Shown: positions 5,006 through 36,192 of the stretch, one piece after another
How positions within the stretch are numbered: the stretch's first letter is position 1
How the letters are laid out: every line of letters starts with the position of its first letter
Assembly: GCA_028277585.1 (NCBI GenBank)
Contig: JANQFY010000516.1
Coordinates: 1 to 36,576, forward strand
DNA from: Sedimentisphaerales bacterium
GTDB taxonomy: Bacteria > Planctomycetota > Phycisphaerae > Sedimentisphaerales > Anaerobacaceae
Direction: 5' to 3'
Length of the DNA stretch: 36,576 bases
Made by a program: the position numbers and the translations under genes
Notes under the pieces: generated by a model
What the model was told of the DNA's origin: nothing
The model's input: the letters and a program-made list of their open reading frames with translations, nothing else
Database searches by the model: none

Positions 5006-5015
5006 TGCGTTCTTC

Positions 5016-8000
5016 CTATTGGGGCAGTTGAGCTCGTATCGTTGCGATCTGATAGGGCGCCATCTCGATCTTCTCTTCGAGCAAGGCGCACCGCTCTTCG
5101 GCAAGGTTGCTCAGAAACACTCTGCGCGGAGCCGGATCGCTCCAGTTCAGTGTCACTTCGTGACGTTTCTGTGTCGGATTGAACAGGCGCAGAACCCAGG
5201 CTTTGCCGTCCTGCGAAGGTTTGAGGATGGTCGCGATCACGTCTTCCGGCTGAAGGCGCAGCAGTGACGGACGCGGCAGAGAACGCTTCGATCCGGGGAC
5301 GGGAATCAGCGGCTGACCGATTTCGGTGCCGAACTTTGCTGCTTGTGCCCCGTCGAAGCCGCCGTGAGGTCGGATAGCGTAGCGGAACGTCGTTGGCCCC
5401 TCCTGGGTAGCCTTGTAGTTGGTCTCCCAGTAGTTGTTCATGACATAGGAGTAGATCGTGGTCGAAGGTTCGAGCTCCTCGATCCAGCCGACGGAGCGCG
5501 GATCGTTAGTGATTCTGCCGATCTCGATCAGCGGTGCGTCGGGCGTCGCCCATGTCAGACCACATTGGTCGTTCGAGATATCGACCCAGCGCTGGACGGT
5601 GAAGTAGTTCTTGCACGCCCCGGGAATCTGGTCGACTTCCGGCCGCACGACTGCCCAGGGCGTGTCCATTCGCACGATACCTCCCGGGACATTGAACGGA
5701 AAGGCGAGATGGACCGCTTCCTGTTGATAGACTTTTGTCTTGTCGATGGTGTCGATGATCTCGAGCCGATCCAGGTCCGCGACCAGGCGAAGTTCCCGCG
5801 TGAGCTTCTGCGCCCCCGGCGCCTTGGATTCGATCGATACCGAGGCGACCAACGGTCCGTTGTCATTGATCCTGATTGTGGCGGTCCCATTACGTTGGGG
5901 AGTCTTGGGATCGCGACCTCGGACGTAGAAGTAGTCGTTTAGCCGTGCGCCGGCGTCGGTACCGGCCAGGTTGGTGTTTGTCTTCTTGCATCTCAGGTCA
6001 GCTATCGCCCCTGTTGTCCTGTCGAGGGCGACTGTCATGAAGCCGTTCGTTAGATCGACTTGGCCGGCGTAGGCCGGTGCGGCGATCCTGGGGGGGCTGT
6101 CGTTCGTGCACCGGAATCGCTTGGCGCCGAAAGCGGGGACGTCCTCGGCGAGAAAGACGCGTTCTCCACTTGACAGCGTCTGGGATGGGATGTGCCTCCC
6201 ACTGGAATCGGTGATCGAGACGCCCCACAGCTTCCAGTCCTTGGGGATGGTGACCAGATCGGTCCGGGCCCAGGAACAGGTGTTGAAGACGTCGATGATC
6301 TCGACGCGCTTGGCAGCCTTGCTGGTTGCCGAGACGGCTTCCTTGAGAAGCTGGTTGGATTGTGTTTCGGCATCGAGCGCGAAGGCCTGCTTGATCTTCC
6401 ACTGGCTCAGGGCGAACTCGCCTTCCGGTTCGGAGATGCTGTTGTGAGCGCCCCAGGTATGTTCGTCGTAGAGGATCACGTCTCTCCACGCCTGGTAGAA
6501 ATCTTCAGCCGGGTACTCCGTCGGTTGGAGCATGGCGAAGAGCGTCTCGGCTTGGACGAGTCGTTCGGCGGCGGCTCGGTTGATGATGGTCTCGCGGGCG
6601 CTCGACGCGGCGCCGTCTTCCCAGTAGGGGGTGAAGTCCCCCGCCACGGTGGGCAGATCGTTCCCGTAGCGCGCCTCGAATTCCTGGAACATCTCGCGGG
6701 TCGTGGCGACCACGAGCCTGGGGTAGGCGTACTTCTCGTTCCAATCCCGAGCGAAGTCCGCCAGGCCGGGATCGGGTGGACCGTTGTCACCCCCGATGGA
6801 ATAGCGCAGATGAAGCATGTCATAGGGATACTCCGCCTGCTCCAGTCGCTGGAGGTACTCGAAGAGGCGCCCCCCGTCGAGTCGCCCACTGTGGAAGAAG
6901 GAATATCCCTCGCCGGCGACCCAGGTGAGGATTTTGTGTTGGCCGCACGGGCTGCGCCAATAGAACGGCTTGTCTCCCCATTGCGAGAGGGTGTAACCGA
7001 TGCGATGGCCCCGATTGGGCCCCACGCAGAAGTACTTAACCGGCGTGTGGGCGAGCACGGGAACGAGTCCCCAGGTGTAGCCCGGGACGTCGGTAATCAT
7101 CGCCGAGTCGATCGTGACATCGTATTGCTTCCTGAGCTGGCCCGCACAATCTACGAGTCGGACGAGTTCCTCGGGGCGACACAGGGCGGTCAGTTCATTG
7201 CCGTAGAGGGCGTCGAGCCCGATCCATCCCTTCTTGACAGCCTCGATGAACGCGGCTCGTTTCTCAGGGGTGGTTTCCCTCAGATAGCTGTCCACGGCCC
7301 AGAGGACCTCGACGTTCCACTTGAATTGCGACCCCTCCGGGTATTGGGCGGACTCCCGCGCCAGCTCAATCACTTCATCGAAGTACTCATAGTGCTTCTG
7401 GAGGACCTCGGTCTGAACGTGTGTGTAGCCGATATCGACGTGAGAATGGTGGAGGATGTAGATCTCCCACTGGCGGACCGGCGTGATTTCGATGGATTGC
7501 TTGCCGATCGAGGTATTCGCCACCCGTACGTCAACGTCAATGGTGGTTGGCTTCTCGATTGCCGGGACATAGCCTTCGATCGTCTTGTAGCCGACTTGAA
7601 GCGTCTGCTTGATGGGCGGGATCCCCTCAATCCTGATCGTCGCGTCGGTGGGCTCCCCGATGTGCAGGATCGATGCGAGCACCGGCTGGTGCAGCTTCCC
7701 CTCGCGCTTGATGAGGAAGGGCTGTGTGTGTACGTCCAGCAACTCGTTCACCTCTGTCAGCGCGCCAAGTCGTACGGAGTCAGGCGCCGTAAACCAAACG
7801 CAGTCGTAGAGAAACCAACTGCCTCGCGCATTGTTGATCGTGATGCTGTTCGTACCCTTCTTGATAAGTGATGCAGGGAACTCGATCTTCGTACAATACT
7901 CCCGACCCTTCTCCACTTCCCCGAACGCGGACGCGTCGCCCGCCCCTTTGGGCAACTGCCTTTGAAACCGGGTTCCGTTTACCTTGATGTCCAATCGCGG

Positions 8001-8369
8001 CGGGAGATTGCTGTGGGTGTCCACGAGATCCAGGTGCAGCGCGCAGGATCCTTGATCCGGAGCGGACTGAACGCCAAAGAGGATGGTCACCTTATGACTC
8101 TTGCTCCCCGCCCAGGTATCGGCCGGCCCCGGCTGGATGTAGGGCCAGTCCTGCTTCGGATTGGATTGGCCCACGATGTAGATAGCGTCGCGGGGGAACT
8201 TGCCGGCGTACTGACCACTCTGATTGGGCCCGAGGGCGAACTCGGCGGTGTTGTTGTCCGCCCGGCCGATGCGAAACAGCGTGCCCTCGCCCGCGGCGGC
8301 CAGGCCGGCCAGTAGCAGCGAGATCAAGAAGGCGGTGAGGATCACTCGGGACGCGTCTCTTGCGTTCAT
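5016..8369 (-). CDS. Exported GH38-type alpha-mannosidase, large
   Basis: This 1117-aa protein has a signal peptide (residues 1-26, ending LAGLAAAG). Residues about 30-195 look like the C-terminal, carbohydrate-binding-like domain of family 4 polysaccharide lyases (TWAGSKSHKVTILFGV, LDIKVNG, GTNSITINNARGSWFLYDCVW). GH38 starts at about 300 with LHHSHVDIGYTH; H310 and D312 match the family's zinc ligands, and D427 in TDVPGYTWG is the likely nucleophile. A second metal-site His may be in YDEHTWGAHNS. A C-terminal beta-sandwich region follows to the end. GH38 enzymes are retaining, metal-dependent alpha-mannosidases. The gene leads the minus-strand operon: promoter at 8419-8447, AGGAG at 8379-8383. 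It differs from the cytoplasmic GH38 at 15612-18794 and may have drifted in specificity. Confidence 0.82.
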   Translation of the reverse strand: MNARDASRVILTAFLISLLLAGLAAAGEGTLFRIGRADNNTAEFALGPNQSGQYAGKFPRDAIYIVGQSNPKQDWPYIQPGPADTWAGSKSHKVTILFGVQSAPDQGSCALHLDLVDTHSNLPPRLDIKVNGTRFQRQLPKGAGDASAFGEVEKGREYCTKIEFPASLIKKGTNSITINNARGSWFLYDCVWFTAPDSVRLGALTEVNELLDVHTQPFLIKREGKLHQPVLASILHIGEPTDATIRIEGIPPIKQTLQVGYKTIEGYVPAIEKPTTIDVDVRVANTSIGKQSIEITPVRQWEIYILHHSHVDIGYTHVQTEVLQKHYEYFDEVIELARESAQYPEGSQFKWNVEVLWAVDSYLRETTPEKRAAFIEAVKKGWIGLDALYGNELTALCRPEELVRLVDCAGQLRKQYDVTIDSAMITDVPGYTWGLVPVLAHTPVKYFCVGPNRGHRIGYTLSQWGDKPFYWRSPCGQHKILTWVAGEGYSFFHSGRLDGGRLFEYLQRLEQAEYPYDMLHLRYSIGGDNGPPDPGLADFARDWNEKYAYPRLVVATTREMFQEFEARYGNDLPTVAGDFTPYWEDGAASSARETIINRAAAERLVQAETLFAMLQPTEYPAEDFYQAWRDVILYDEHTWGAHNSISEPEGEFALSQWKIKQAFALDAETQSNQLLKEAVSATSKAAKRVEIIDVFNTCSWARTDLVTIPKDWKLWGVSITDSSGRHIPSQTLSSGERVFLAEDVPAFGAKRFRCTNDSPPRIAAPAYAGQVDLTNGFMTVALDRTTGAIADLRCKKTNTNLAGTDAGARLNDYFYVRGRDPKTPQRNGTATIRINDNGPLVASVSIESKAPGAQKLTRELRLVADLDRLEIIDTIDKTKVYQQEAVHLAFPFNVPGGIVRMDTPWAVVRPEVDQIPGACKNYFTVQRWVDISNDQCGLTWATPDAPLIEIGRITNDPRSVGWIEELEPSTTIYSYVMNNYWETNYKATQEGPTTFRYAIRPHGGFDGAQAAKFGTEIGQPLIPVPGSKRSLPRPSLLRLQPEDVIATILKPSQDGKAWVLRLFNPTQKRHEVTLNWSDPAPRRVFLSNLAEERCALLEEKIEMAPYQIATIRAQLPQ

Positions 8370-11827: not shown

Positions 11828-13192
11828 ATGACCCTACCCATCCCGCCGTCGTCTGAGACGGAGAGCGATCCCCTGGTATTGGAGAAGCTGGAACGCTTCC
11901 GAGACATAAAGCTGGGCCTGATGATCCACTGGGGGCCCTACAGTGTCTGGGGCGCCGTGGAATCCTGGCCTATCTGCGACGCCGAGCCCTATGGACGCGA
12001 TGCGCTACCGGCCTGGGAGCAGTCGGGCAAAGATGTCGAGAGATTCATGGAGATGTACTTCGCTCTGAATCGGCGCTTCAATCCCGTCGACTTCGACCCG
12101 GAGGATTGGGCGAACACGGCGGCCAATGCCGGCATGAAGTACCTGGTCTTCACCACCAAACACCACGACGGGTTCTCCATGTTCGAGACGCGCCAGACGG
12201 AATACCGGGTCACCCACCCATCGTGTCCGTTCCATCAGAGTCCCACCGCGAACGTGACCCGCGTTCTCTTCGACGCGTTCCGTCGACGTGACTTTCAGAT
12301 CGGCGCTTATCTGTCCAAGGCGGATTGGCATCATTGCGACTACTGGAATCCTGATGCGCCCCGCTTGGCGCGGGAGGCGAACTACGACGTGGACGAGCAT
12401 CCAGCCGCATGGGGTCGCTACGTGGATTTCGTGCACAAACAGGTCGAGGAACTCATGACAGGATACGGGCCGGTCGATATCCTCTGGCTCGATTCGGATT
12501 GGGTGCGCCCGCCTCGCGAGGACATCGACATGCCCCGCCTGGCTGCGATGGCTCGAATGCATCAGCCGGGACTGATTGTCGTGGACCGCGCGGTCGGAGG
12601 GCGGTATGAGAACTACCGAACGCCCGAGCAGACCGTGCCCGACGCGTTTCTGGAGGGCGTGTGGGAAAGCTGCATCACGATGGGTGATCAATGGTCGTTC
12701 AATCCGGTCGACAAATACAAGAGTTCGCGCGATCTGATTCACATGCTGATCCGTATCGTTGCTCGGGGTGGGAACCTTCTGCTCAATGTCGGCCCGGGGC
12801 CGGATGGTAGTCTGCCCCTGGAGGCGCGGGACCGTCTGGCGGAGATCGGCGAGTGGTTGCGAGTCAACGGGGAAGCCATTTACGGCACGCGGCCCATCCC
12901 GCCCTATGAAGACGGTGGCACCTGTCTGACACAGAGGGATGAGACGGTGTACGCCATTGTTCTGGCTGAGGAAGGCCAGTCCGCGCCTCCGTCAGAGGTT
13001 GTGTTCCCCTTCGTCGAAAAGGTCCAGAGCGTCCGCATGGCGGGCGTTGACGGCGATCTGGAGTGGCGGGGCGACAAGGACGGGCTGGTGGTTTCCCTTC
13101 CCCGGGCAATTTGCCAGGCGCCGCCATGCAGGTACGCCTGGACGTTCGCGCTGAGAGGTGCGAAGATCCGCAACAACCCAGACGAAGATTGA
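11828..13192 (+). CDS. Cytoplasmic alpha-L-fucosidase (GH29)
   Basis: This 454-aa GH29 enzyme has no signal peptide. Family landmarks are IKLGLMIHWGPYSVWG near residue 27, FTTKHHDGFSMFET near 108, DILWLDSDW at 217-225 (D222 at the nucleophile position) and RGGNLLLNVGPGPDGSLP. A small C-terminal beta domain ends in CRYAWTFALRG, like the end of the exported GH29 at 152-1978 (CRYAWAFRIEG). There is no PA14 module. GAGG lies 8 nt before the ATG, the upstream stop is 10 nt away and the GH94 gene starts 13 nt after its stop, so the three are co-transcribed. With cytoplasmic GH94, GH38 and GH130 neighbours, it probably removes fucose from an imported oligosaccharide. Linkage specificity (for example core alpha-1,6 versus alpha-1,3) cannot be told. 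Confidence 0.9.
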   Translation: MTLPIPPSSETESDPLVLEKLERFRDIKLGLMIHWGPYSVWGAVESWPICDAEPYGRDALPAWEQSGKDVERFMEMYFALNRRFNPVDFDPEDWANTAANAGMKYLVFTTKHHDGFSMFETRQTEYRVTHPSCPFHQSPTANVTRVLFDAFRRRDFQIGAYLSKADWHHCDYWNPDAPRLAREANYDVDEHPAAWGRYVDFVHKQVEELMTGYGPVDILWLDSDWVRPPREDIDMPRLAAMARMHQPGLIVVDRAVGGRYENYRTPEQTVPDAFLEGVWESCITMGDQWSFNPVDKYKSSRDLIHMLIRIVARGGNLLLNVGPGPDGSLPLEARDRLAEIGEWLRVNGEAIYGTRPIPPYEDGGTCLTQRDETVYAIVLAEEGQSAPPSEVVFPFVEKVQSVRMAGVDGDLEWRGDKDGLVVSLPRAICQAPPCRYAWTFALRGAKIRNNPDED

Positions 13193-13205
13193 GGGATGCA
13201 TCTCT

Positions 13206-15608
13206 ATGCGGTACGGCTACTTCGACGAGAAGAACAGAGAGTATGTCATCGACCGGGTCGATGCGCCCGTCTCCTGGACGAACTATCTGGGCCAGGAGGA
13301 CATGTGCGCGGTGATCAGCCACAACGCGGGAGGGTACGCCTTCTATCGGTCGGCTGAGCGAGGTCGCATCACGCGGTTTCGCCCGAACGGGGTTCCGCTG
13401 GATCGACCCGGTCATTACGTGTACGTGCGTGACGACGACACTGGGGAGTACTGGTCGATCTCCTGGCAGCCGGTGGGCAAGGATCTCAACAAAGCGAAGT
13501 ACACCTGTTGTCATGGTCTCTCCTATTCGCGGTTCCAATGTTGCCACAAAGGCATTCGTGCTGAGCAGACGCTCTTCATTCCCCTGGGTGACGATGTGGA
13601 GCTGTGGGACGTCGTGCTTGCGAACACGAGCAAACGCGTGCGCCACTTGAGCGTGTTCTCTTACGTTGAGTTCTCGCTCCATCAGGTGAGCCTGGACAAT
13701 CAGGATTTCCAGATGGGGCTCTACGCCAGTGGGTCCAGCTATCGGGACGGCGTTATCGACTACGATTTCTTCTACGCGCCGGGGCTGCACCATTTCTTCA
13801 CGGCGAACTTCGAGCCGGACAGCTACGACTGCTTGCGCGACAGCTTCATCGGACCCTATCGTACGGAGACCAACCCGCTGGCGGTTGAGCAGGGGGAGTG
13901 TTCGGGCAGCAGTCAATTGGGAGGCAATCACTGCGGGGCTTTGCACAAACGCCTCACCATTGAGCCCGGCCAGGAGGCGCGTTGCGTCTTCATGTTGGGT
14001 GTGGGCGCCGGCGCCAAGCAGGGTCGGCGGATGAGGAAGAAGTACTCCGATCCGAGCGTTGTAGACCAGGCGTTCGGCGATCTGAAGCGTCACTGGGAGG
14101 GCAAGCTCTCGAACCTCCAATGCCGTACGCCGGATGAGGGCATGAACGCCATGCTCAACACCTGGGCGCTTTACCAGGCGGAGACCTGTGTGACATGGTC
14201 GCGGTTTGCGTCTTTCGTTGAGGTGGGAGGGCGCACCGGACTGGGCTATCGCGATACCGCTCAGGACGCGATGAGTGTCGCCCATTCCAACCCCGCCGGC
14301 GTCAAGCAGCGTCTCCTGGAACTGCTGCACGGCCAGGTTTCCACAGGTCTCGGACTGCATCTGTTTGACCCGCTTCTGCTGATGCCCAAGCAGGAAGGCA
14401 GCGACGCCAAGGCGACGATCCCCACAGTTGTCATGGGTGACGACGCAACCGTCCGCATTCCCACGCTCAAAGACGTGTGCTCGGATGACGCCCTCTGGCT
14501 CGTGGCCACGGTTTGCGAATACGCCAAGGAAACGGGGGATCTCGATTTCCTCGAGACCGTCGTGCCGTTCGCCGACAAGGGCAAGGCCAGTGTATACGAT
14601 CATCTCAAACGCGCGCTGGATTTCTCGGGCCAGCACGTCGGGCCTCACGGCATCGCCGAGGGCTTGCGGGCCGACTGGAACGATTGCATCAACCTGCGGG
14701 GCGGCGAGACCGCGATGGTCTCCTTCATCAACTTCTGGGCTTTGCAGGCGTTCATCGAGTTGGCCGCTCACCTGGGGCGCAAAGCGGATGTCAAGAAATA
14801 CCGGCGTTTCTCGGAGAAGGTCAAGACGGCCTGCGATGAGCAGCTCTGGGACGGCAAGTGGTACCTGCGCGGCTTCACATCCAAAGGGCGCAAGCTCGGC
14901 ACGCGGGCGGACCGCCAGGGCAAGCTGTTCCTCAACGCCCAGAGTTGGGCGGTAATGAGTGGCCTCAGCACAGGGCCGCGCGCGAAGCAGTGTATGGACG
15001 CTGTGGACAAGCACCTGTTCAGTGAGTTCGGCCTGCACCTGCTCTGGCCCGCCTACTCCAAACCGGACGACGATATAGGCTTCGTGACCCGAGTCTATAA
15101 AGGCATCAAAGAGAACGCCGCGATCTTTTCCCATCCGAATCCCTGGGCGGTGATCGCTGAGTGCATGCTGGGCCGGGGTGACCGCGCGCACAAGTTCTAC
15201 AGCGCCATGTTGCCCTACAACCAGAACGACATGATCGAAATCCGCGAGGCCGAGCCCTACTCCTATTGCCAGTTCATCATGGGCAAGGACCACAGCCGCC
15301 ATGGTCAGGCGCGACATCCCTGGCTCACCGGCTCGGCCGGATGGTTCTACCTGGCGGCGACGCAATGGATCCTGGGCGTCCGACCGACCTTCGAAGGCTT
15401 GGTGATTGACCCTTGCATCCCCGAGTCATGGCGCGGCTTCGAGGTCACGCGCCAATGGCGCGGCGCGACCTACCATATCACCATTCGCAACCCGGACGGG
15501 GTCTCCCAAGGCGTTGCTTCCGTCGAACTAGACGGCCAATTCGTGACGGGCCCCATCCCGCCGCAGGGACGCGGCTCAATCAACAAGGTCGTCGTGACCA
15601 TGGGTTGA
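13206..15608 (+). CDS. GH94 phosphorylase, N,N'-diacetylchitobiose type
   Basis: This 800-aa protein is full length for GH94, which cleaves beta-linked disaccharides with inorganic phosphate to give a sugar 1-phosphate. The N-terminus MRYGYFDEKNREYVI, then SHNAGGYAFYRS, GYRDTAQDAMSV (near 350), GLRADWNDCINL (D490 matches the family's general acid) and EPYSYCQFIMGKDH follow the chitobiose phosphorylase pattern. As I recall the families, cellobiose phosphorylases read GFRDSNQD at the second site, which favours GlcNAc-GlcNAc to GlcNAc-1-phosphate plus GlcNAc. The start at 13206 has GAGGG overlapping the fucosidase stop; an earlier in-frame ATG at 13158 would lie inside that gene. It has no signal peptide, so it is cytoplasmic. 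It ends 3 nt from the convergent GH38 gene. Confidence 0.85.
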   Translation: MRYGYFDEKNREYVIDRVDAPVSWTNYLGQEDMCAVISHNAGGYAFYRSAERGRITRFRPNGVPLDRPGHYVYVRDDDTGEYWSISWQPVGKDLNKAKYTCCHGLSYSRFQCCHKGIRAEQTLFIPLGDDVELWDVVLANTSKRVRHLSVFSYVEFSLHQVSLDNQDFQMGLYASGSSYRDGVIDYDFFYAPGLHHFFTANFEPDSYDCLRDSFIGPYRTETNPLAVEQGECSGSSQLGGNHCGALHKRLTIEPGQEARCVFMLGVGAGAKQGRRMRKKYSDPSVVDQAFGDLKRHWEGKLSNLQCRTPDEGMNAMLNTWALYQAETCVTWSRFASFVEVGGRTGLGYRDTAQDAMSVAHSNPAGVKQRLLELLHGQVSTGLGLHLFDPLLLMPKQEGSDAKATIPTVVMGDDATVRIPTLKDVCSDDALWLVATVCEYAKETGDLDFLETVVPFADKGKASVYDHLKRALDFSGQHVGPHGIAEGLRADWNDCINLRGGETAMVSFINFWALQAFIELAAHLGRKADVKKYRRFSEKVKTACDEQLWDGKWYLRGFTSKGRKLGTRADRQGKLFLNAQSWAVMSGLSTGPRAKQCMDAVDKHLFSEFGLHLLWPAYSKPDDDIGFVTRVYKGIKENAAIFSHPNPWAVIAECMLGRGDRAHKFYSAMLPYNQNDMIEIREAEPYSYCQFIMGKDHSRHGQARHPWLTGSAGWFYLAATQWILGVRPTFEGLVIDPCIPESWRGFEVTRQWRGATYHITIRNPDGVSQGVASVELDGQFVTGPIPPQGRGSINKVVVTMG

Positions 15609-15611
15609 ACA

Positions 15612-18600
15612 TCAGGCCGGAACAAGGCGCAAGGTCACGATCTCGTGGGGCTTGACGTAGAGCGTCAGTTCGTTATCACCCACCTCCAGTGACTCGGTGG
15701 TATGTTCGAGGAGATTGGTTTTGTGGGCTGCCCCTAACTCAAAGCCCGTTCGCACGGTGACATTGCCGCGCTGCCGCATGGCCTCATACATTCGGACGAT
15801 GATACCACTGCTATCTTCCGCGCGCTTGATGGTTTCGATCACCATGTTGTCACCATCGACACTCACCAAAGGCTCGATCTGTTTCGTCTGTAAGCTTGGT
15901 CTTGCCGGCTCGAAGACGATTGTTGGATCGTTGAGGGCGTAGGCGGCGGCGATGGTCGCCTGGCCCCAGCGGCCGGCGTGGGGCAGTAGGCTATATGTGA
16001 AGGTATGCTCTCCTTGGTCCGCGACCGGGTCGGGCATGGTCGGGCTGCGCAGCAGCGTGATGCGAATCACGTTGTCCTGAATATCGTGACCATACTTGCA
16101 GTCATTCAGCAAGCTGACCCCGTAGTTGCCCTCGCTCAGGTCCACCCACTTCTGGGCGCATTGCTCGAACCGAGCCCAGTCCCAGCTCGTGTTGCGATGG
16201 GTCGGGCGCTGGACGTGGCCCCATTGGATTTCGTGGGTGGCTTCGTTGGCGTGGATCGCGGCTGGGAAAGCAGCCTTGAGCAGAACGTGCTTCTCGCGCC
16301 AGTCGATCCGGGTCTCAATGTCCAATTGTCGGCTGTTGTGCGCCAGGCGGATGTACTGCGTGTACTCACTGCTAAGGATCTTCCGCTTGATCTCGATGGC
16401 GGCGCGCAGGGGGCCTTCCTCGACCACGCGGATCGCATGGGCCGGTTCGCTGGTCCACATCTTGTCGTCGTAGAAGATGTCGATGTCCCACGCGTCCCAG
16501 TTGATGGGCCGGTCCTCGAAGGCCTGGAACTGGTTCGCCACGGCGCCTTCGGCGAGCACTTCCCGGTCATTCTCCTTGTCGTAGATACTGGCGATATCAC
16601 CGTTAGCGTTGAATTCCACCTGCAGCAGATCGTTTTCCAGACGTGTAGGATGGGCTTCAGCCCATGCTGACGGAGATGTTGCCGTATCGGGGCCGCATGG
16701 GCTGAAGCCCATCCTACCCTGCTCGATAATCACCGGGACGATGCCGAGGGGTTCGATGGCGCCGGCGTCGATCAATGTGCCCGCCTCAGTTCTCTGTGTG
16801 GGAAGGACCTGTCCTGCTGGTCCTGAGAGCGATTCACCTTCCTTGAGTGTACCGGTCCACAGCACCGGTTCGTTTCGCTCGAAGGCAATGGGGTTCGCCA
16901 GGACGATTCGGCCGCCGGTTGCTCGGGCGATATGGTCCAACGCTCGGGTTTTCACGTCGTCTGCGATCCTCCGGACGCGCTCGTATTGCTCCAGCGACTC
17001 GGTGTACACCTCCCCAATCGACGATCCGGGGATGATGTCGTGGAACTGGTTCAGGCAGACGAGTTGCCAGGCTTCGCGCAGATCGGTGTGAGGGTACTGA
17101 AACTCGGCATCGAGAACGCTCGCCAGAGTAGCGATCCATTCGGCGTCGTGGAGCATGAACTCGCTCTTGCGGTTCGCACGTTTGTTTCTGCCATGGGTGG
17201 TATAGGTTCCCCGGTGGTATTCGAGGTACAGTTCGCCGTTCCAGGTGGGCAGTTTCTCTGCGGCGGCCCGGTCCAGTTCCTCGAAGAAATCGATCGCGCG
17301 ACCATGCTGGGTGCGGGGCAATCCGGGGCACTCGCCCATCTCGCGGATGTTCTCCAGCATTTCTCGGGTCGGGCCTCCACCGCCATCACCATAACCGAAG
17401 GCGGTCATGAGATTGCTGTGCGTCTCCTTCTGCTGGAAGTTCTTCCAACTCTTGTGGATCTCCTCGGGGACAGCGGTCCCGTTATACGTCACGCCCTTGT
17501 CCGTCCCCGCTGCCGGTGTGGTGCCCAGGTGCGTCAGGACCTTGGTCCCGTCGATGCCTTGCCACCAGAAGCTGTCGTACGGGAAGCGGTTGTACTGGCT
17601 CCAGGAGAGCTTGGTCGTATAGAAGTAGGTCAGGCCCGCCTGCTTGATCAGTTGCGGCAAGCAATAGGAATAGCCGAACACGTCAGGGAGCCAGAGGATG
17701 GGCGTCTCGGCCTCGGCGCCGAAATGCTCGGCGAAGAAGGTCCGACCCAGCAGGAACTGGCGGGCCAGCGATTCGGGTCCGCTGACGTTGCAGTCGGCTT
17801 CGACCCACATGCCGCCCGTGGCTTCCCAATGCCCCTGGGCAATCCTCCTCTTGATGCGTTCAAACAGTTCGGGGTTGTCTCGTCGCACGTAGTCGTACAA
17901 CTGGGGTTGGCTCTGCGTAAAACGGTACTGTTCGAACTCGTCCATCAGCGCGAGCACCGTGTTGAAGGATCGCTCGCACTTGCGCCGTGTCTGAGCCAAG
18001 GGCCAGAGCCAGGCGACGTCGATATGGCTGTGTCCCACCGCCGTGACATTGGCATCCAGACTCGGGCCCGCCTGGCGCAGTCCGGCTCGGAGCGTCCGGT
18101 GGGCGTCCGGGACACTTCTGTAGAATCGGTCGTCCAGCGGTTCGCGCGTATCCAACACCTTGAACGCCTCATCCAGAGCATTGAGAATTCGCCCCTTGGC
18201 CGGCTGGTTGTCGTCGAGTGTCTGCGCGGCACCCAGGGCAACCCGTACGGCCGCGATGAAGTCCTGGGTCGCTCGGTCGAGCTGGACGAGTTCGCACTTC
18301 TCCATCAGAAGCTTGATCTTGGGCGGGTTCTCGAAATACCCCCATCGGCCCGTATAGCCGTGCAGCGCCAATATATGCTCATTGTCATCGACGAAACGCT
18401 CTGGTAACAGGATGAGGCGATGGTACTTGTCACAGCCGGCGATCGCCTGGGCGTCAACATGGACCAGCGCTTCGGGGTGACAGAAGTCCCAGTTGTGAAT
18501 CTCGCCTAGATTCAGGAGCAGCCCCACTGGCTCCGCGCCATTCCAGTCCTGAGGTCTCCGGAACCGCCCGCGCAGCGTGAAGTTCGTGTTCCACTGGCCC

Positions 18601-18794
18601 CAGTAGGTCCCGGCTTCGACCGCGGGCCAGGAGGAGTCGTCCACTTCGAGACCCACCTGGCCCGGTTCCTCGGGGCCGGCGTGCTCGCAATAACGAAACG
18701 GACCGAGCGGGGCCCGGCGGCGATACATGGAAGGCTCGATCAGCGCCAGGCGGCCCGTGATTTTCGCCAAGGTCAATCGTCTTTCGTGTTCCAT
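15612..18794 (-). CDS. Cytoplasmic alpha-mannosidase (GH38)
   Basis: This 1060-aa enzyme has the full GH38 order and no signal peptide: an N-terminal beta domain (to about 245), the catalytic domain beginning AVGHSHIDVAWLWP (H257 and D259 zinc ligands), LWLPDVFGYS with D371 as nucleophile, QFHDIIPGSS with H585 as a further zinc ligand, then beta domains starting LENDLLQVEFNANGDI. It should remove alpha-mannose from imported oligosaccharides. AGGAG lies 6 nt before the ATG. It is transcribed alone on this strand, divergently from GH130 and convergently with GH94. Residues about 693-717 are encoded by a perfect inverted repeat (16645-16717) that looks like a mobile REP-type element accepted in a linker between domains; the frame stays open across it. 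Confidence 0.92.
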   Translation of the reverse strand: MEHERRLTLAKITGRLALIEPSMYRRRAPLGPFRYCEHAGPEEPGQVGLEVDDSSWPAVEAGTYWGQWNTNFTLRGRFRRPQDWNGAEPVGLLLNLGEIHNWDFCHPEALVHVDAQAIAGCDKYHRLILLPERFVDDNEHILALHGYTGRWGYFENPPKIKLLMEKCELVQLDRATQDFIAAVRVALGAAQTLDDNQPAKGRILNALDEAFKVLDTREPLDDRFYRSVPDAHRTLRAGLRQAGPSLDANVTAVGHSHIDVAWLWPLAQTRRKCERSFNTVLALMDEFEQYRFTQSQPQLYDYVRRDNPELFERIKRRIAQGHWEATGGMWVEADCNVSGPESLARQFLLGRTFFAEHFGAEAETPILWLPDVFGYSYCLPQLIKQAGLTYFYTTKLSWSQYNRFPYDSFWWQGIDGTKVLTHLGTTPAAGTDKGVTYNGTAVPEEIHKSWKNFQQKETHSNLMTAFGYGDGGGGPTREMLENIREMGECPGLPRTQHGRAIDFFEELDRAAAEKLPTWNGELYLEYHRGTYTTHGRNKRANRKSEFMLHDAEWIATLASVLDAEFQYPHTDLREAWQLVCLNQFHDIIPGSSIGEVYTESLEQYERVRRIADDVKTRALDHIARATGGRIVLANPIAFERNEPVLWTGTLKEGESLSGPAGQVLPTQRTEAGTLIDAGAIEPLGIVPVIIEQGRMGFSPCGPDTATSPSAWAEAHPTRLENDLLQVEFNANGDIASIYDKENDREVLAEGAVANQFQAFEDRPINWDAWDIDIFYDDKMWTSEPAHAIRVVEEGPLRAAIEIKRKILSSEYTQYIRLAHNSRQLDIETRIDWREKHVLLKAAFPAAIHANEATHEIQWGHVQRPTHRNTSWDWARFEQCAQKWVDLSEGNYGVSLLNDCKYGHDIQDNVIRITLLRSPTMPDPVADQGEHTFTYSLLPHAGRWGQATIAAAYALNDPTIVFEPARPSLQTKQIEPLVSVDGDNMVIETIKRAEDSSGIIVRMYEAMRQRGNVTVRTGFELGAAHKTNLLEHTTESLEVGDNELTLYVKPHEIVTLRLVPA
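16645..16717. repeat. Perfect 23-bp inverted repeat inside the GH38 gene
   Basis: Arms 16645-16667 and 16695-16717 are exact reverse complements, separated by 27 nt. Each arm also contains a small palindrome, GGGCT-TC-AGCCC. Read in frame it gives RMGFSPCGP...AWAEAHPTRLE, a composition unlike the rest of the enzyme. This two-arm layout is typical of REP/BIME-like elements mobilised by RAYT-type transposases. No second copy is seen in the window. Confidence 0.85.
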
Positions 18795-18853
18795 GTGGAC
18801 TCCTGAATGTGGGGCGTGCCGGCCCGAAACCGTCGGTCTGTCAAGTCGGCCTG

Positions 18854-18882
18854 AGTCTAGCGGAAAAGGTTTGACCGTTCAA
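18854..18882 (-). promoter_or_regulatory. Promoter of the cytoplasmic GH38 gene
   Basis: On the minus strand TTGAAC (18877-18882) and TAGACT (18854-18859) are 17 nt apart, about 60 nt before the GH38 start. Its -35 box lies in the palindrome shared with the divergent GH130 promoter. Confidence 0.5.
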
Positions 18883-18884
18883 AC
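18869..18884. promoter_or_regulatory. Palindrome over both divergent -35 boxes
   Basis: GTTTGA (18869-18874) and TCAAAC (18879-18884) are perfect arms around CCGT. The right arm carries most of the minus-strand -35 (TTGAAC), and the left arm carries the plus-strand -35 candidate TTGACC. A dimeric repressor bound here would shut off GH38 and the GH130 operon together. The symmetry may also be a by-product of back-to-back -35 boxes. Confidence 0.45.
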
Positions 18885-18899
18885 AGATTCATATACCCT
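18871..18899 (+). promoter_or_regulatory. Putative promoter of the GH130 operon
   Basis: TTGACC (18871-18876) is a good -35. The -10 is less clear: TACCCT (18894-18899) is 17 nt away, and TATACC (18892-18897) is a better match but only 15 nt away. The GH130 ATG at 18948 has GAGG at 18937-18940. Confidence 0.35.
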
Positions 18900-18947
18900 A
18901 CTCCGCGACATGACACGCCACGAAACACCTGGTAACGAGGATCTGAG

Positions 18948-19937
18948 ATGACGAAGAAACGGACGATCATTGGGCCCAGCTTGCCGAATATTCCCTGGGA
19001 GGACCGACCGAGCGATTGCAGCACGATCATGTGGCGCTACAGCGCCAACCCGGTCATCCCGCGCGACCTGATCCCCACCTCCAACAGCATCTTCAACAGC
19101 GCGGTCGTGCCGTTCGAAGGCGCTTTCGCGGGTGTCTTTCGTTGTGACGACATGTCCCGTGAGATGCACATCCACGTCGGCCGCAGCCGGAACGGGATCG
19201 ATTTCGAGATCGATCCTGCGCCGATCCAGTTCGTCTGCGACGAGCCGGAGATCGCCGAGCACATCGAGGCTTACGATCCGCGCGTCTGCTGGCTGGAAGA
19301 TCGCTACTATGTCACGTGGTGCAACATCTACCATGGTCCGACGATTGGGATGGCTTACACCCATGATTTCAAAACCTTCCACCAGATCGAAAACGCCTTT
19401 TTGCCGTACAATCGCAACGGCGTTCTGTTCCCGCGCAAGATCGGTGATCGCTACGCGATGCTGAGCCGGCCCAGCGACACGGGGCACACCCCGTTCGGGG
19501 ACGTTTTCTACAGCGAGAGCCCCGACTTGTGCTTCTGGGGTCGGCACCGCTACGTCATGGGAACCAAGGGCGGCTGGCAATCGAAAAAGGTCGGCCCCGG
19601 TCCGGTTCCCATCGAGACGACCGAAGGCTGGTTGATGATCTACCACGGGGTGCTCAATAGCTGCAACGGGTTCGTTTACCACATGGGCGCGGCGCTGCTG
19701 GATCTGGAGAAGCCATGGAAGGTCATGTACCGGGCCAAGCCGTACATCCTTTCGCCGCAGACTCTGTACGAATGCGTCGGCGACGTGCCGAACGTGACGT
19801 TCCCCTGTGCGGCGCTGGCGGATGCCGATGCGGGTCGCATCGCCGTCTATTACGGCTGCGCCGACACCGTGACGGGCATCGCCTTTACGCAGGTGGACGA
19901 GCTGATCGATTTCGTCAAGACCCACTCGGAACTGTAG
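18948..19937 (+). CDS. GH130 phosphorylase, beta-1,4-mannosyl-GlcNAc type
   Basis: This 329-aa cytoplasmic protein is full length for GH130, which phosphorolyses beta-mannosides to mannose 1-phosphate. D110 in EAYDPRVCW is the family's catalytic aspartate. Stretches such as [47 protein letters not shown] and [10 protein letters not shown] match, as I recall them, the GH130_2 enzymes UhgbMP and BT1033, which act on Man-beta-1,4-GlcNAc from N-glycan cores. Subfamily 2 is therefore the likely assignment; mannosyl-glucose phosphorylases (subfamily 1) are less similar. GAGG lies 7 nt before the ATG. It leads a plus-strand operon with UroD-like 2 and the esterase, and diverges from the GH38 alpha-mannosidase, whose product (Man-GlcNAc or Man-GlcNAc2) it would use. 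Confidence 0.9.
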
Positions 19938-19953: not shown

Positions 19954-20976
19954 ATGACGCCGAGAGAGCTTGTCGTCAGATCGCTGGAGTTCGATGGACC
20001 GGCCCGCATCCCCCGTGAGATGGGGCTGTTGCCCTGGGCGACCTCGCGCTTCGAAGCGCAGGTCCGGCGCATTCAGGAACGGTTCCCGAACGACCTGACG
20101 ATGTCGCACTACTTCTGTCGTGAACCCGTTCCCGGCGCTGGCGATCCCCATGGCGTGGGGACATATATCGACGAGTGGGGTTGCACCTTCATCAACAAGC
20201 AGGCAGGTGTCATCGGCGAGGTGAAAGATCCTCTGGTTGCCTCCTGGGCCGACATGGAGAAGGTCAAAGAACCGGTCGGAGCCCTGACGGCGGACACGGA
20301 CAAGGCCGCCGCGTTCTGCCGCCAGACGGACAAGTTCGTGTTGGCCCCGTGCTGTCCCCGCCCATTCGAGCGGCTCCAGTTCCTGCGCGGCACGGAAAAC
20401 GTCATGATGGATCTGGCGCTGGGCTCGGACGAACTACGTGCGTTGCTCGATCGGATCCACCAGTTCTATCTTAAGGAAGTCCAGTTGTGGTCCAGGACGC
20501 CCGTGGATGGGATCGTCTTCATGGACGACTGGGGGACTCAGCGGTCGCTATTGGTCTCGCCCGCCATGTGGCGTGACTGGTTCAAGCCGTTGTATCGTGA
20601 GTACATCGAGATCGCCCACGCGGCTGGCAAGAAGATCTTCATGCACTCCGACGGCTGGATCACGGAGATCATCGACGATCTCATCGAGTTGGGGCTCGAT
20701 GCCCTGAATGCCCAGGTCTTCTGTATGGGTCTGGAGGAACTTGGCGCGCGGTTCAAGGGACGCATCACCTTCTGGGGCGAACTCGACCGCCAGCACCTAC
20801 TGCCCCATGGGACGCGCGAAGAGATCTTCGAGGCGGTGCGTCGTTTCAATCAGTGCTTCTATGATCAGGGCGGGGTGATCGGCAAACTGGAATTCGGACC
20901 GGGTGCGAATCCGGACAACGTATACGCAGCGTTCGAGGCGTGGGACGCCTTTTCAGAACAGGAGTTCGCCGCATAA
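19954..20976 (+). CDS. UroD-fold protein 2, function unknown
   Basis: This 340-aa UroD-fold protein begins MTPRELVVRSLEFDGPARIPRE. It has VDGIVFMDDWGTQRSLLVSP near 185 and IFMHSDGWITEIIDDLIELGLDALN near 228. At the position where methyltransferase relatives carry H-x-C it has H231-S-D-G, and no later paired Cys is evident (WGELDRQHLL), so a zinc site like that of UroD-like 1 is not supported. It is probably not the haem enzyme: the N-terminal arginine signature is altered and the gene sits between GH130 (17 nt upstream) and an exported esterase (29 nt downstream). Its ribosome site is weak. Proteins of this type recur in sugar-use loci of PVC bacteria without known activity. Cytoplasmic. Confidence 0.8.
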   Translation: MTPRELVVRSLEFDGPARIPREMGLLPWATSRFEAQVRRIQERFPNDLTMSHYFCREPVPGAGDPHGVGTYIDEWGCTFINKQAGVIGEVKDPLVASWADMEKVKEPVGALTADTDKAAAFCRQTDKFVLAPCCPRPFERLQFLRGTENVMMDLALGSDELRALLDRIHQFYLKEVQLWSRTPVDGIVFMDDWGTQRSLLVSPAMWRDWFKPLYREYIEIAHAAGKKIFMHSDGWITEIIDDLIELGLDALNAQVFCMGLEELGARFKGRITFWGELDRQHLLPHGTREEIFEAVRRFNQCFYDQGGVIGKLEFGPGANPDNVYAAFEAWDAFSEQEFAA

Positions 20977-21005: not shown

Positions 21006-24000
21006 ATGAATGGGATCATGAGCAGATGGCGTAGTGCAGTTGTCCTTCTTTGTGTGCTTGGTGCGGCAAGCGCGCCGGGGCAGACTGTCGTCACGGGGGA
21101 CACGACCGAGATCGTTCTGCGCGAGGGACTGATGATCGATGGCGTCGGGCGCTACGGGCGCAGCCCTGTGCATCGCGATGCCGTGGAGGCTCTGATCCTC
21201 AGCGGCGCATGGAAGGAGCCTCAGGAGGGGGACATACTCGAAGACGCCGAGGGCGAGGAGCGAACCTGGCGCAAGACCACCGCCGACGAAGAGGGGTGGT
21301 TCTCCCAGAAGAAGGGGCGCAGTGGGTATATCTATGTCCGGGTGGATTCCGACGCCGCCCGCACGATGCTCTTGCACATGCGGGGCAACAGCATGGCGTA
21401 CGTCAACGGCGTGCCGCGCGTGGGAAGCCGTTACCAGTACCGCGAGGAGGTCGCCCCGTGGGAACCGCACTTCGATTACGTTCAATTGCCCGTCCGGCTC
21501 AAGAAGGGCGCTAACGATCTGCTCCTCAAGCGAACCTGGCGCTCGCGAGGTCGGGTCAAGGCGCGACTGCTCAAGCCCAAGGCACCTGTGCAGTTGAATC
21601 CCAGCGATGTCACTGTACCCGACCTGCTGGTCGGCCAAGCGGCCGAGATGGTTGGCTCAATCGTCTTGATCAACTCGTCCGATGACGTCCAGACAGCTCT
21701 CTCGATCGCCGTATCGGGGCCGAGCGAAAAGCAGGGCGCCGTCGACGTGCCGATCATCCGACCGCGCAGCGTGCGCAAGGTGATGTTCCCGATTCGTTGT
21801 GACACGGACGCCCTGAAGGAATTGGGCAAGCAGACGCTTGAGTTGAAAGTGCTCCGCAAGAATGGGGACGCCTCGATTGTTCTGGATCGGTGTTCGGTTG
21901 GCCTGAACGTCAAGAAGCCCGGCGAGACCCACAAGCGCACCTTCGTCAGCTCGATCGATGGGAGTGTGCAGTACTACGCGGTCAATCCCGCCAAGCCGTT
22001 GCCGGGAGACGACGCGCCGCCGGCGTTGGTTCTGAGCGTTCACGGCGCCAGTGTCGAGGCGATCAATCAGGCGGGTTCCTACAGCTCCAAGAACTGGTGC
22101 AATATCGTGTCCCCGACGAATCGACGGCCCTACGGTTTCGACTGGGAGGACTGGGGACGTGTCGACGCGCTTGAGGTGTTTGAGGACGCCAAAGCGGCTC
22201 TGGGCTACGATCCCGAGCGTGTCTACCTGACCGGTCATTCCATGGGTGGGCACGGCACTTGGATTCTGGGCTCGGAGTACCCCGACAAGTTCGCCGCGAT
22301 CGGTCCCAGCGCCGGTTGGCTGAGCTTCTGGTCGTATCGCGCGGCGACGAAGATCGACGACCCTTCTCCGGTCGAGGCGATCCTGACCCGACCCGAATTG
22401 GCCGGCGATACGATGACGCTCGCCAAGAACCTGACCGACACGGGCCTCTACATCCTCCACGGTGGGGCCGATAAGGTCGTACGCGCCGATCAGTCGCACA
22501 CGATGGTCAAACACCTCGAGACATTCCACAAGGACTTCGTCTATCACGAAGAGCCGGGACAGGGGCACTGGTGGGACCTGTCCGATGAGCCGGGCGCTGA
22601 CTGTGTGGACTGGGCGCCGATGTTCGATTTCTTCGCCCGGCACGCACTGCCGGCGCCGAAGGCGGTGCGCCAGGTCGATTTCGTTACCGTCAATCCGGGC
22701 ATTAGCGCCTGGTCTTACTGGGCCGGCATCGAAGACCAGATCGAGCACTTGAAGCTCAGCTCCATCAGCATCCGGATCGACCCGGGGAAGCGGCGCTTCG
22801 TCGGGACCACCGAGAACGTAGCGCGGCTGAGTCTGAAGCTCGATGTCCTGCCGGAAGGTGAGTCGCTGAGCGTGCAGTTGGACGATCAGACCCTTGCCGA
22901 CATTCCTTACCCCCGCGGCTGCAAGCAGATCTGGCTGGTGCGCAAGGGCGACCAGTGGTCTCTGGCGAGCGAACCGCCCAAGGTCCTGAAGGGGCCGCAC
23001 CGCTTTGGGCCGTTCAAGGAAGCGTTCCGGCACAACATGGTTTTCGTTATTGGCACCGCCGGCACCGAAGAAGAGAACGCCTGGGCTCGCACCAAGGCCC
23101 GCTTCGACGCCGAGCAATGGTGGTATCAGGGCAATGGCTCCGTGGATATCATCGCGGATGTGGACTTCTCGCTCAGGGCCTACGCGGATCGCGGCATCGT
23201 TCTGTACGGCAATTCGGAGACGAACGCCGCCTGGTCGCAACTGCTGAGAACCAGCCCTGTGCAGGTCGATCGCGGCGGTGTGACGATCGGCGATCAGCGC
23301 TTGGCGGGCGACGATTTGGCCTGCTTGTTCCTGCGTCCCAGAACCGACAGTGAGATTGCCTGCGTGGCGGTCGTCAGCGGGACCGGCGTCAAGGGCATGC
23401 ACATGACGAATCGCCTGCAGTATATCTTCGCAGGGTGCAACTATCCTGACTGTTTCGTGATCGGTCCTGAGATGTTGACCGAAGGCACCGAGGGCGTGCG
23501 GGCGGCCGGCGTTTTCGGAAGTGACTGGACCGTGGAATCGGGGACGTTCGCCTGGCGCGACGAGCAGGAGATCCTGAAGGTCGAGGCGACCGAGTCCAAG
23601 GACTTGCCGGCCTATATCGGCCCCGACCCGAGACCGTTCGTCATGCCCCGGGGCTATGTATGCCAGCGGGCTCGAGGCCCCATCGTCGTCGACGGCAAAC
23701 TCGACGAGCCGTCGTGGGACAAAGCCGCCTGGACGGATTATCACGTGGACATTGAAGGACAGATGCGTCCGGTGAAGCCCCGCCACGAGACACGCTGCAA
23801 GATGCTCTGGGACGACGAGTATTTCTACGTCGCTGCCTGGATGGCCGAGCCGCATGTCTGGGGGACCATCACCGAGAGAAACGCGGTGATCTTCAATGAC
23901 AACGATTTCGAAGTCTTCATCGATCCGGACGGGGACAGTCACGCATACTATGAGTTCGAGGTTAACGCTCTCAACACCGTGTGGAACCTGCTCATGGACA

Positions 24001-24656
24001 AGCCCTACAAGCACGGGGGCAACGCCGTCATTCGGGAGATGCCGGGCCAGAAGAGCGGCGTCTTCGTCAAGGGGACGCTGAACAACCCAGCCGACATCGA
24101 TGAGTACTGGACGGTGGAGATTGCGTTCCCCTGGACGGGGATGGCTGAGCATGCCACGTGCCCGTGCCCGCCCAAGAACGGCGACCAGTGGCGCGTCGGG
24201 TTCTCTCGGGTAGAGTGGGGTCACCGCATCGTGGACGGCAAGTACATTCGCTGGCCCGACAAAGAGGAGCGCAAGGACAACTGGCACGAGGACAACTGGA
24301 TCTGGTCGCCTCAGGGCGTAGTCAATATGCATCGCCCCGAAACTTGGGGATACGTGCAGTTCTCCACCAAGAGAGTCGGCGGACGCGCCAAGCTGACTCC
24401 CGATCCCGCGGCCAAGGCGCGCTACCTGTTGCACAAGGTTCTCTACGCTCAGGAACAACACCATCTGAAGCACGATCGTTATGCCACTAAGCTGGCTGCG
24501 CTGGGGCTCGGCAAACTGATGGATGAAACGCTCGCCGAACCGATCACGATGAGGACGACCCAAGCGGGCTGGGAAGCTGTCGCCCGACTGGCCCGTAAAC
24601 GCCAGGGCATTCGGACGCTGCATGTCCGACAGGACGGCAAAGTGTGGGCGGAGTGA
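21006..24656 (+). CDS. Exported alpha/beta-hydrolase (esterase-like) with CBM9-like domain
   Basis: This 1216-aa protein starts at the ATG at 21006: GGAGG lies at 20993-20997 and a signal peptide follows (SAVVLLCVLGAASAPGQ). Residues about 30-200 form a beta-sandwich-like region. An alpha/beta-hydrolase of the prolyl-oligopeptidase/depolymerase type follows: S412 in TGHSMGGHGTW, D489 in HGGADKVV and H521 in GQGHWWD make a plausible triad. The C-terminal part from about 880 (GPIVVDGKLDEPSWDKAAW, YFYVAAW, NDNDFEVFIDPDGDSHAYYEFEVNA) is a CBM9/DOMON-like carbohydrate-binding domain common in environmental glycan degraders. It may remove ester groups (such as acetyl) from glycans; peptidase activity is the alternative. 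Last gene of the GH130 operon. Confidence 0.82.
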   Translation: MNGIMSRWRSAVVLLCVLGAASAPGQTVVTGDTTEIVLREGLMIDGVGRYGRSPVHRDAVEALILSGAWKEPQEGDILEDAEGEERTWRKTTADEEGWFSQKKGRSGYIYVRVDSDAARTMLLHMRGNSMAYVNGVPRVGSRYQYREEVAPWEPHFDYVQLPVRLKKGANDLLLKRTWRSRGRVKARLLKPKAPVQLNPSDVTVPDLLVGQAAEMVGSIVLINSSDDVQTALSIAVSGPSEKQGAVDVPIIRPRSVRKVMFPIRCDTDALKELGKQTLELKVLRKNGDASIVLDRCSVGLNVKKPGETHKRTFVSSIDGSVQYYAVNPAKPLPGDDAPPALVLSVHGASVEAINQAGSYSSKNWCNIVSPTNRRPYGFDWEDWGRVDALEVFEDAKAALGYDPERVYLTGHSMGGHGTWILGSEYPDKFAAIGPSAGWLSFWSYRAATKIDDPSPVEAILTRPELAGDTMTLAKNLTDTGLYILHGGADKVVRADQSHTMVKHLETFHKDFVYHEEPGQGHWWDLSDEPGADCVDWAPMFDFFARHALPAPKAVRQVDFVTVNPGISAWSYWAGIEDQIEHLKLSSISIRIDPGKRRFVGTTENVARLSLKLDVLPEGESLSVQLDDQTLADIPYPRGCKQIWLVRKGDQWSLASEPPKVLKGPHRFGPFKEAFRHNMVFVIGTAGTEEENAWARTKARFDAEQWWYQGNGSVDIIADVDFSLRAYADRGIVLYGNSETNAAWSQLLRTSPVQVDRGGVTIGDQRLAGDDLACLFLRPRTDSEIACVAVVSGTGVKGMHMTNRLQYIFAGCNYPDCFVIGPEMLTEGTEGVRAAGVFGSDWTVESGTFAWRDEQEILKVEATESKDLPAYIGPDPRPFVMPRGYVCQRARGPIVVDGKLDEPSWDKAAWTDYHVDIEGQMRPVKPRHETRCKMLWDDEYFYVAAWMAEPHVWGTITERNAVIFNDNDFEVFIDPDGDSHAYYEFEVNALNTVWNLLMDKPYKHGGNAVIREMPGQKSGVFVKGTLNNPADIDEYWTVEIAFPWTGMAEHATCPCPPKNGDQWRVGFSRVEWGHRIVDGKYIRWPDKEERKDNWHEDNWIWSPQGVVNMHRPETWGYVQFSTKRVGGRAKLTPDPAAKARYLLHKVLYAQEQHHLKHDRYATKLAALGLGKLMDETLAEPITMRTTQAGWEAVARLARKRQGIRTLHVRQDGKVWAE

Positions 24657-25624: not shown

Positions 25625-25631
25625 GAGTCCG

Positions 25632-25638
25632 CCTCTCC
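25632..25638 (-). promoter_or_regulatory. Ribosome binding site fixing the GTG start at 25624
   Basis: On the minus strand GGAGAGG is followed by 7 nt and GTG (25622-25624). This favours the internal GTG over the one at 25642. Confidence 0.6.
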
Positions 25639-25668
25639 GCACACTAAGTCCGGCCGGACGGGGCCGGG

Positions 25669-29371: not shown

Positions 29372-29400
29372 TCGACAGGATGGGGCGATCGGGCTATGAT
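29372..29400 (+). promoter_or_regulatory. Promoter of the MTA phosphorylase gene
   Basis: TCGACA (29372-29377) and TATGAT (29395-29400) are separated by 17 nt, and each differs from the sigma-70 consensus at one base. A perfect AGGAGG (29414-29419) follows, 12 nt before the ATG at 29432. Confidence 0.6.
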
Positions 29401-29431
29401 GAGGCCGACAGAAAGGAGGCCAAGTAAGGAT

Positions 29432-34095: not shown

Positions 34096-34103
34096 GGGGC
34101 CTA

Positions 34104-34108
34104 CTCCT
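34104..34108 (-). promoter_or_regulatory. Ribosome binding site fixing the GTG start at 34095
   Basis: AGGAG on the minus strand is 8 nt before GTG (34093-34095). An ATG at 34113 in the same frame would place this site inside the gene, and the signal peptide reads better from the GTG. Confidence 0.6.
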
Positions 34109-34138
34109 AACATCGAGGCAGCACGCGAGTTTGTCGCC

Positions 34139-34167
34139 ATGCTAACCGCTCGTCGAGCCGCACTCAA
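34139..34167 (-). promoter_or_regulatory. Putative promoter of the glycosidase-phosphatase fusion
   Basis: On the minus strand TTGAGT (34162-34167) and TAGCAT (34139-34144) are 17 nt apart. The GTG start at 34095 lies 43 nt downstream. Confidence 0.45.
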
Positions 34168-34186
34168 GTGGGATCCGGGCGTAGTA

Positions 34187-34215
34187 TTGGCAGATGGTCT
34201 CATTCGCGGTACAAT
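34187..34215 (+). promoter_or_regulatory. Promoter of the DUF2007 gene
   Basis: TTGGCA (34187-34192) and TACAAT (34210-34215) are separated by exactly 17 nt, each one base off consensus. It is followed by a perfect AGGAGGT (34247-34253), 6 nt before the ATG at 34260. This is one of the best promoters in the window. Confidence 0.65.
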
Positions 34216-36132: not shown

Positions 36133-36166
36133 GGAGTGCTCCTTTTCTTGGTATAGGTGGTCCGAG

Positions 36167-36192
36167 CGGACAAGCACGGGGGCTTGCCCCTA
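36167..36192. repeat. REP-like hairpin with GGGGC-TT-GCCCC
   Basis: GGGGC (36179-36183) and GCCCC (36186-36190) pair around TT, and a second pairing CAAGC (36171-36175) with GCTTG (36182-36186) is possible. On the minus strand it reads GTAGGGGCAAGCCCC and onward, a pattern I recall as a widespread repeat. The TAG within it (36190-36192) is the stop codon of the right-edge gene. Confidence 0.65.

Follow-up and report, generated by a model that had tools for sequence, protein, structure and literature searches.

Three adjacent genes of the DNA analysed, coding for a GH94 of the chitobiose-phosphorylase type, an Ams1-like alpha-mannosidase (GH38b) and a UhgbMP-like GH130 (together called the block), on balance probably form a cytoplasmic end-stage module for an N-glycan core that retains both of its GlcNAc residues, as judged from sequence and gene linkage. 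This reading is supported by the valine that GH94 carries at the position corresponding to V631 of the Vibrio enzyme, the UhgbMP-like GH130, the conserved linkage of the three genes, and the presence of GH92 genes in the same genome (G000). The window, by which the whole stretch of 36,576 nucleotides is meant, is one complete contig of this 7.17 Mb draft genome (532 contigs, 80% complete), which probably belongs to Planctomycetota, order Sedimentisphaerales. The first-pass annotation had placed a GH29, the GH94, the GH38 and the GH130 side by side, and both the Pfam families and the ORF positions agreed with this. Around the four enzymes lie a second fucosidase (GH29a), a second GH38 (GH38a), two sodium symporters, three URO-D-like proteins, an esterase/peptidase-like protein (EST) and a GH95-like/metallophosphatase protein. 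The features used below are:

152-1978, minus strand: GH29a, secreted-looking fucosidase with PA14 domain (PF01120, PF07691), possible outer tier
5016-8369, minus strand: GH38a, divergent GH38, secreted-looking, with CBM-like domain (PF01074, 5.7e-14), possible outer tier
11828-13192, plus strand: GH29b, alpha-L-fucosidase without signal-like N-terminus (PF01120, 1.5e-87; best PDB match 6gn6)
13206-15608, plus strand: GH94, predicted chitobiose-phosphorylase type, block core (PF17167, 2.8e-168)
15612-18794, minus strand: GH38b, Ams1-like alpha-mannosidase without signal-like N-terminus, block core (PF01074, 2.5e-88)
18795-18947, no strand: divergent region between GH38b and GH130, with a weak promoter-like stretch
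18948-19937, plus strand: GH130, UhgbMP-like predicted beta-1,4-mannoside phosphorylase, block core (PF04041, 1e-68)
19954-20976, plus strand: UROb, URO-D-like protein, 16 bp 3' of GH130 (PF01208)
21006-24656, plus strand: EST, secreted-looking esterase/peptidase-S9 with CBM9 (PF00326, PF06452)
24677-25642, minus strand: UROc, URO-D/MtaA-like protein (PF01208), present in genome G436 too (tblastn)
25669-27741, minus strand: SSSb, sodium:solute symporter, candidate importer (PF00474)

The earlier description of the four enzymes as one gene set held for their adjacency and failed for a single operon, since GH38b is on the minus strand. GH29b and GH94 run head-to-tail with a 13 bp gap, GH94 and GH38b meet tail-to-tail with 3 bp between their stops, and GH38b and GH130 diverge with 153 bp between their starts. 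The listed GH94 ORF has a GTG start inside GH29b; the ATG at 13206 matches residue 1 of 1v7v. In a crude Kyte-Doolittle scan of the N-termini (10-mers, a simpler measure than SignalP), the best means were 0.87-1.07 in the four enzymes versus 1.97-2.97 in GH29a, GH38a and EST; none of the four showed a strongly hydrophobic N-terminal segment, in agreement with the claim that they lack signal peptides. A promoter-like TTGAyy-17 nt-TAnnCT stretch, read by eye, was partly conserved across the five block members and was not listed by the promoter scan, which gave 6 sites versus 4.3 in shuffles; the terminator scan gave 10 versus 11.4, and a search for inverted repeats in the divergent GH38b-GH130 region returned nothing of note.

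Three URO-D/MtaA-like proteins (3794-5104, minus; 19954-20976, plus; 24677-25642, minus) stand among the glycan genes. The one at 3794-5104 contains HCCG and, further on, a Cys, presumably reminiscent of the zinc site of corrinoid methyltransferases, and the other two have HSDG at the HCCG position; demethylation of O-methylated sugars would be a guess at their role. The minus-strand gene at 30799-34203 codes for a fusion of a GH95-like catalytic domain with a purple-acid-phosphatase/metallophosphatase domain, and the plus-strand gene at 29396-30307 for an S-methyl-5'-thioadenosine phosphorylase (TIGR01694 above cut-off), probably unrelated to the glycan genes around it.

The best PDB match of the window GH94 was ChbP of Vibrio proteolyticus (1v7v, 1126 bits; next match 551 bits), with 58.3% identity across 796 residues, and in the alignment the catalytic Asp492 and Val631 (VpChBP numbering) were both kept. 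According to the available text of PMC10318527, ChbP has V631 where cellobiose and cellodextrin phosphorylases carry Tyr, a position crucial for chitobiose specificity. Reading of the V631 column was restricted to GH94 matches whose tblastn segment reached E<=1e-100, in an alignment whose 128 rows included 109 distinct ones, three of these being PDB references; coverage led to the removal of three of 128 segments, and no segment came from ten of the fetched GH94 loci. Among the 109 distinct rows the residue was V in 83, F in 17, Y in six, M in two and I in one, V being present in the window, G436, G486, G287 and both copies of G516. PDB names alone would have misled, because 8bou, listed as a diacetylchitobiose phosphorylase, has Tyr at this column and acts, per the available text of its own paper, on cellotriose and mixed-linkage oligosaccharides. 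The chitobiose-type assignment made on first pass was thus borne out, both by the identity to VpChBP and by the valine, and the window GH94 is a predicted chitobiose phosphorylase type. Its closest named relative among the matches listed was in a Sedimentisphaerales MAG (locus L003, 76%), which appears to be G436, a genome of the same family, the match coordinates being in agreement.

For GH38b the best PDB matches were named Ams1 and alpha-mannosidase, and the H-x-D, W-V-E-A-D and QFHD motifs were kept in the block members; in the G486 copy one His of the GHSHID stretch is Asn, with H-x-D kept. The window GH130 was 67% identical to UhgbMP, 65% to RaMP2 and 57% to TM1225, scored 432-528 bits against GH130_2-like enzymes and <=135 against other GH130s, and aligned its Tyr109-Asp110 with the catalytic YD pair. 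With UhgbMP closest and the non-phosphorylase GH130s scoring far lower, the GH130_2-type call was upheld. In the GH130 tree (32 rows), the five block GH130s fell on one side of a branch opposite the other labelled group (100/99) and formed, together with that of G516, a clade of their own (98/92), and four placed partners of GH94s with another residue at the V631 column (non-V) grouped with G520 and TM1225 (97/92). The tree joined the block to neither UhgbMP nor RaMP2, the latter being nearly as close by identity as the former.

Gene order and strands of the GH94-GH38b-GH130 block were identical in G000, G287 (L119), G486 (L196), G495 (L201) and G436, which represent five genera and two families of the order. 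In G436 the block is split over two contigs, the ends of which share 83 identical nt in an overlap within GH38b, and in G495 the contig start cuts GH94. Relative to the window copies, GH94 was 68-76% identical where full-length, GH38b 57-73% and GH130 74-84%. Both the GH94 tree (which drew a long-branch warning for 3qde and 8bou) and the GH130 tree gave ((G000,G436),(G486,G287)) with G516 outside; this last genome has two GH94 genes with the valine (GH94-V) and a GH130 on other contigs, unlinked, which fell beside the block clade in the two trees. A single origin of the five block copies is compatible with these trees and is probable, so the copies are not independent; the weight of the comparative support lies in the linkage surviving the divergence among the carriers.

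Two neighbours accompany the block. By tblastn, EST adjoins it in four of five genomes, namely G000 (where a URO-D gene intervenes), G287, G436 and G495, and in G486 a Melibiase-family protein occupies the EST position. The EST copies (window 21006-24656, L119:15403-19080, L197:6274-9939, L201:4719-7838 and L230:2021-3694) showed 57-68% identity, and an EST homologue in G503 adjoins GH38b, not GH130. Four of the five genomes have SSSb in the vicinity of the block, and in G495 the contig stops short of the SSSb position. GH29 matches were absent from the fetched flanks of the four other block copies, two of which (G436 and G495) are on contigs that end at or inside GH94, with the upstream side unseen. 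The linkage of GH94, GH38b and GH130 proved conserved, which supports in part the four-enzyme core pathway first put forward, and a fucosidase gene beside the block was seen in this window only; GH29b could be a local addition in this genome, with a predicted role in removing core fucose.

Among 161 genomes of the order, matches were obtained for GH94 (E<=1e-100) in 21, for GH130 (E<=1e-60) in 46 and for GH38b (E<=1e-80) in 26; for the co-occurrence counts, GH38b and GH130 were taken at >=50% identity, a cut of our own that gave 12 and 30 genomes. GH94-V (n = 6, G495 being included through a 134-aa C-terminal fragment with 64% identity that does not span V631) occurred with GH38b in five of six genomes (expected 0.45, hypergeometric p 5e-6) and with GH130 in all six (expected 1.1, hypergeometric p 3e-5), p-values that treat genomes as independent, which genomes of one order are not. 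Non-V GH94s (n = 16, read directly in 14 genomes and assigned by 39% and 37% identity alone in G433 and G501) occurred with GH130 in 11 genomes (expected 3.0) and with GH38b in one (expected 1.2). Seven genomes carry GH38b without GH94-V: GH38b and GH130 are on separate contigs in G441, G503, G521, G535 and G536 and far apart on one contig in G127, and no GH130 was found in G531. An alpha-mannosidase and a beta-1,4-mannoside-cleaving family stand together, as adjacent GH38b and GH130 genes, in five genomes, and this adjacency was seen only in genomes that also have GH94-V.

A sample of the phylum had GH94 in 14/392 genomes, GH130 in 17/392 and both in 8/392. The fetched flanks of the best 80 GH94 loci among the matches listed for other genomes, many of them cut by contig ends, contained GH130 in one case (L054) and GH38b in one (L003). 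L054 (Oscillospiraceae) was considered as a second block lineage and rejected, its GH130 and GH94 being 8.6 kb apart on a single contig, with intervening ORFs that look unrelated by eye. At L058 and L004 the GH94 adjoins a phosphohexomutase, which fits the use of GlcNAc-1-P.

A second kind of pairing was formed by non-V GH94s and GH130s, which co-occur in 11 genomes of the order and, in 10 of the 11, share a contig at a distance of at most 2.7 kb. These pairs differ from the block in having Phe at the V631 column (11/11), a GH130 of the TM1225 clade (four pairs placed in the tree), GH38b in only one genome, and MFS sugar transporters beside the pair in G261 and G157 (loci scanned). Pairs of a Phe-type GH94 and a TM1225-like GH130 were seen at L120, L121, L122 and L211; they are perhaps a compact glucomannan module. 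The notion that any GH94-GH130 pair denotes N-glycan use was discarded on these counts: the pairing alone is not an N-glycan marker, because non-V GH94s pair with GH130 in 11 genomes and GH38b is present in just one of the 16 genomes with a non-V GH94.

From the families, key residues and linkage, all of which were observed directly, we infer the substrates, the order of the steps, the uptake and the fate of the sugar phosphates as follows. GH29b could first strip the core fucose (in this genome only) and GH38b would take off the last alpha-mannose(s) of Man-alpha-Man-beta-GlcNAc2, after which GH130 would convert Man-beta-1,4-GlcNAc2 and phosphate to mannose-1-phosphate and chitobiose, and GH94 would convert chitobiose and phosphate to GlcNAc-1-phosphate and GlcNAc. 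Mutases would pass both sugar phosphates into central metabolism, and one activation step would be saved per bond, because both cleavages yield sugar phosphates that enter in this way. Uptake may proceed through SSSb, which gave a single PDB match (E=0.68); sodium symporters are, to our knowledge, not established as importers of tetrasaccharides. In the available text of PMC9522356, plant N-glycan breakdown leaves Man-alpha-1,6-Man-beta-1,4-GlcNAc-beta-1,4-GlcNAc, for the alpha-1,6-mannose of which no enzyme had been reported at the time; the beta-mannose of the core can be removed by GH2 and GH130 enzymes, and hydrolysis of the remaining chitobiose is reported for a GH20 without being restricted to GH20. 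A GH38 of B. longum cleaves the core alpha-1,6-mannose according to PMC10154615, the available main text of which does not contain the word chitobiose. GH38b, GH130 and GH94 would fit the three core steps, two of them phosphorolytic.

The release of the glycan was looked for in the wider genome, where the first-pass annotation had proposed that an endoglycosidase or PNGase be sought. The search covered PNGase and GH18 and found neither in G000, an absence that is soft because the genome is 80% complete. PNGase A was found in none of the five block genomes and glycosylasparaginase in one of five; in a search of four genomes that included two block carriers, the PNGase F C-domain gave no match, and neither did its control. 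These results weigh against the N-glycan reading, as do the unlinked GH94-V and GH130 of G516, the GH38b genes of the seven genomes that lack GH94-V, and the two GH18 genes of the block carrier G287. A minus-strand gene at 34540-36177 codes for a secreted-looking protein with a beta-propeller and a transglutaminase core; it was rejected as a PNGase, its match to 2f4m (E=0.001) being slightly weaker than that to the generic transglutaminase-like 3isr. Because PNGase A gave no match in any of the five block carriers and glycosylasparaginase none in four, a dedicated, doubly phosphorolytic Man-GlcNAc2 pathway fed by an unrecognised N-glycan-freeing enzyme that keeps both GlcNAc residues could be proposed, a version that we consider improbable; EST, beside GH130, is a candidate partner in freeing N-glycans. 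Free N-glycans, or glycans freed by other organisms, could also serve as food. G000 further carries four GH92 genes and two of DUF4838, which we take to be GH163. An endoglycosidase of this type would leave one GlcNAc, so that GH130 would act on Man-GlcNAc and GH94 on chitobiose from elsewhere; the DUF4838 genes and the absence of PNGase matches speak for it, but it is very improbable, given that the 99%-complete, single-contig genome of the block carrier G287 had no DUF4838 match and that the persistence of GH94 with GH38b and GH130 would be left unexplained.

Chitin and mannan co-occur in fungal walls, and scavenging of such or mixed material, with GH94 acting on chitin-derived chitobiose and GH38b and GH130 on mannosides in parallel rather than in series, is a rather unlikely explanation that draws on a related GH94 standing beside GH18, GH2 and GH20 at L007, as for chitin, and on the two GH18 genes of G287. 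Among the four genomes searched for GH18, however, G000 had none, which makes chitin a less likely source of chitobiose there; neither GH18 nor GH20 was among the annotated ORFs of the window, and the strict linkage of GH94, GH38b and GH130 would be left unexplained. Alternatively, GH130 may act on beta-1,4-mannooligosaccharides, the vicinity of GH38b and GH94 reflecting general salvage of mannose and hexosamine. RaMP2, a mannooligosaccharide enzyme, is as similar as noted above, and the sister-clade GH130s of G418, G534 and G521 adjoin GH5 and GH2 genes, that of G418 (the only sister locus whose importer was family-scanned) also an oligopeptide-type ABC importer; these loci look like beta-mannan use and therefore count against an automatic N-glycan call for GH130. 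This explanation is nonetheless unlikely in view of the separate clade formed by the GH130s of the block and G516, the restriction of GH38-GH130 adjacency to genomes with GH94-V, and a window in which no endo-mannanase-like gene was annotated.

If the N-glycan core reading is correct, chitobiose would be phosphorolysed where PNGase-based breakdown, as described in the available literature, hydrolyses it, and for each core two glycosidic bonds could be conserved as sugar phosphates by energy-poor environmental bacteria; GH94 with Val631, GH38b and GH130 side by side would then be a genomic marker of glycoprotein turnover. The statement that the pairing of GH94 with GH130 is not standard agreed with the literature consulted, in that no account of it for N-glycans was met in the open-licence papers examined. 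Among known systems, Vibrio ChbP shares V631, the catalytic Asp and 58% identity with the window GH94 and is known, in the text available, from chitin catabolism (in work on Vibrio furnissii), whereas the window GH94 is linked to GH38 and GH130 and not to chitinolytic genes. UhgbMP and BT1033 of gut bacteria act on Man-beta-1,4-GlcNAc or Man-beta-1,4-GlcNAc2 to give Man-1-P, and the available descriptions give them no chitobiose phosphorylase partner; the window GH130, close to UhgbMP and with a predicted activity, has the GH94. Plant N-glycan breakdown in Bacteroides, in the available text of PMC9522356, involves the same core tetrasaccharide, with GH29, GH92 and GH130 encoded in related loci, but differs in that chitobiose is hydrolysed, a PNGase is present and uptake is of the SusC/D type.
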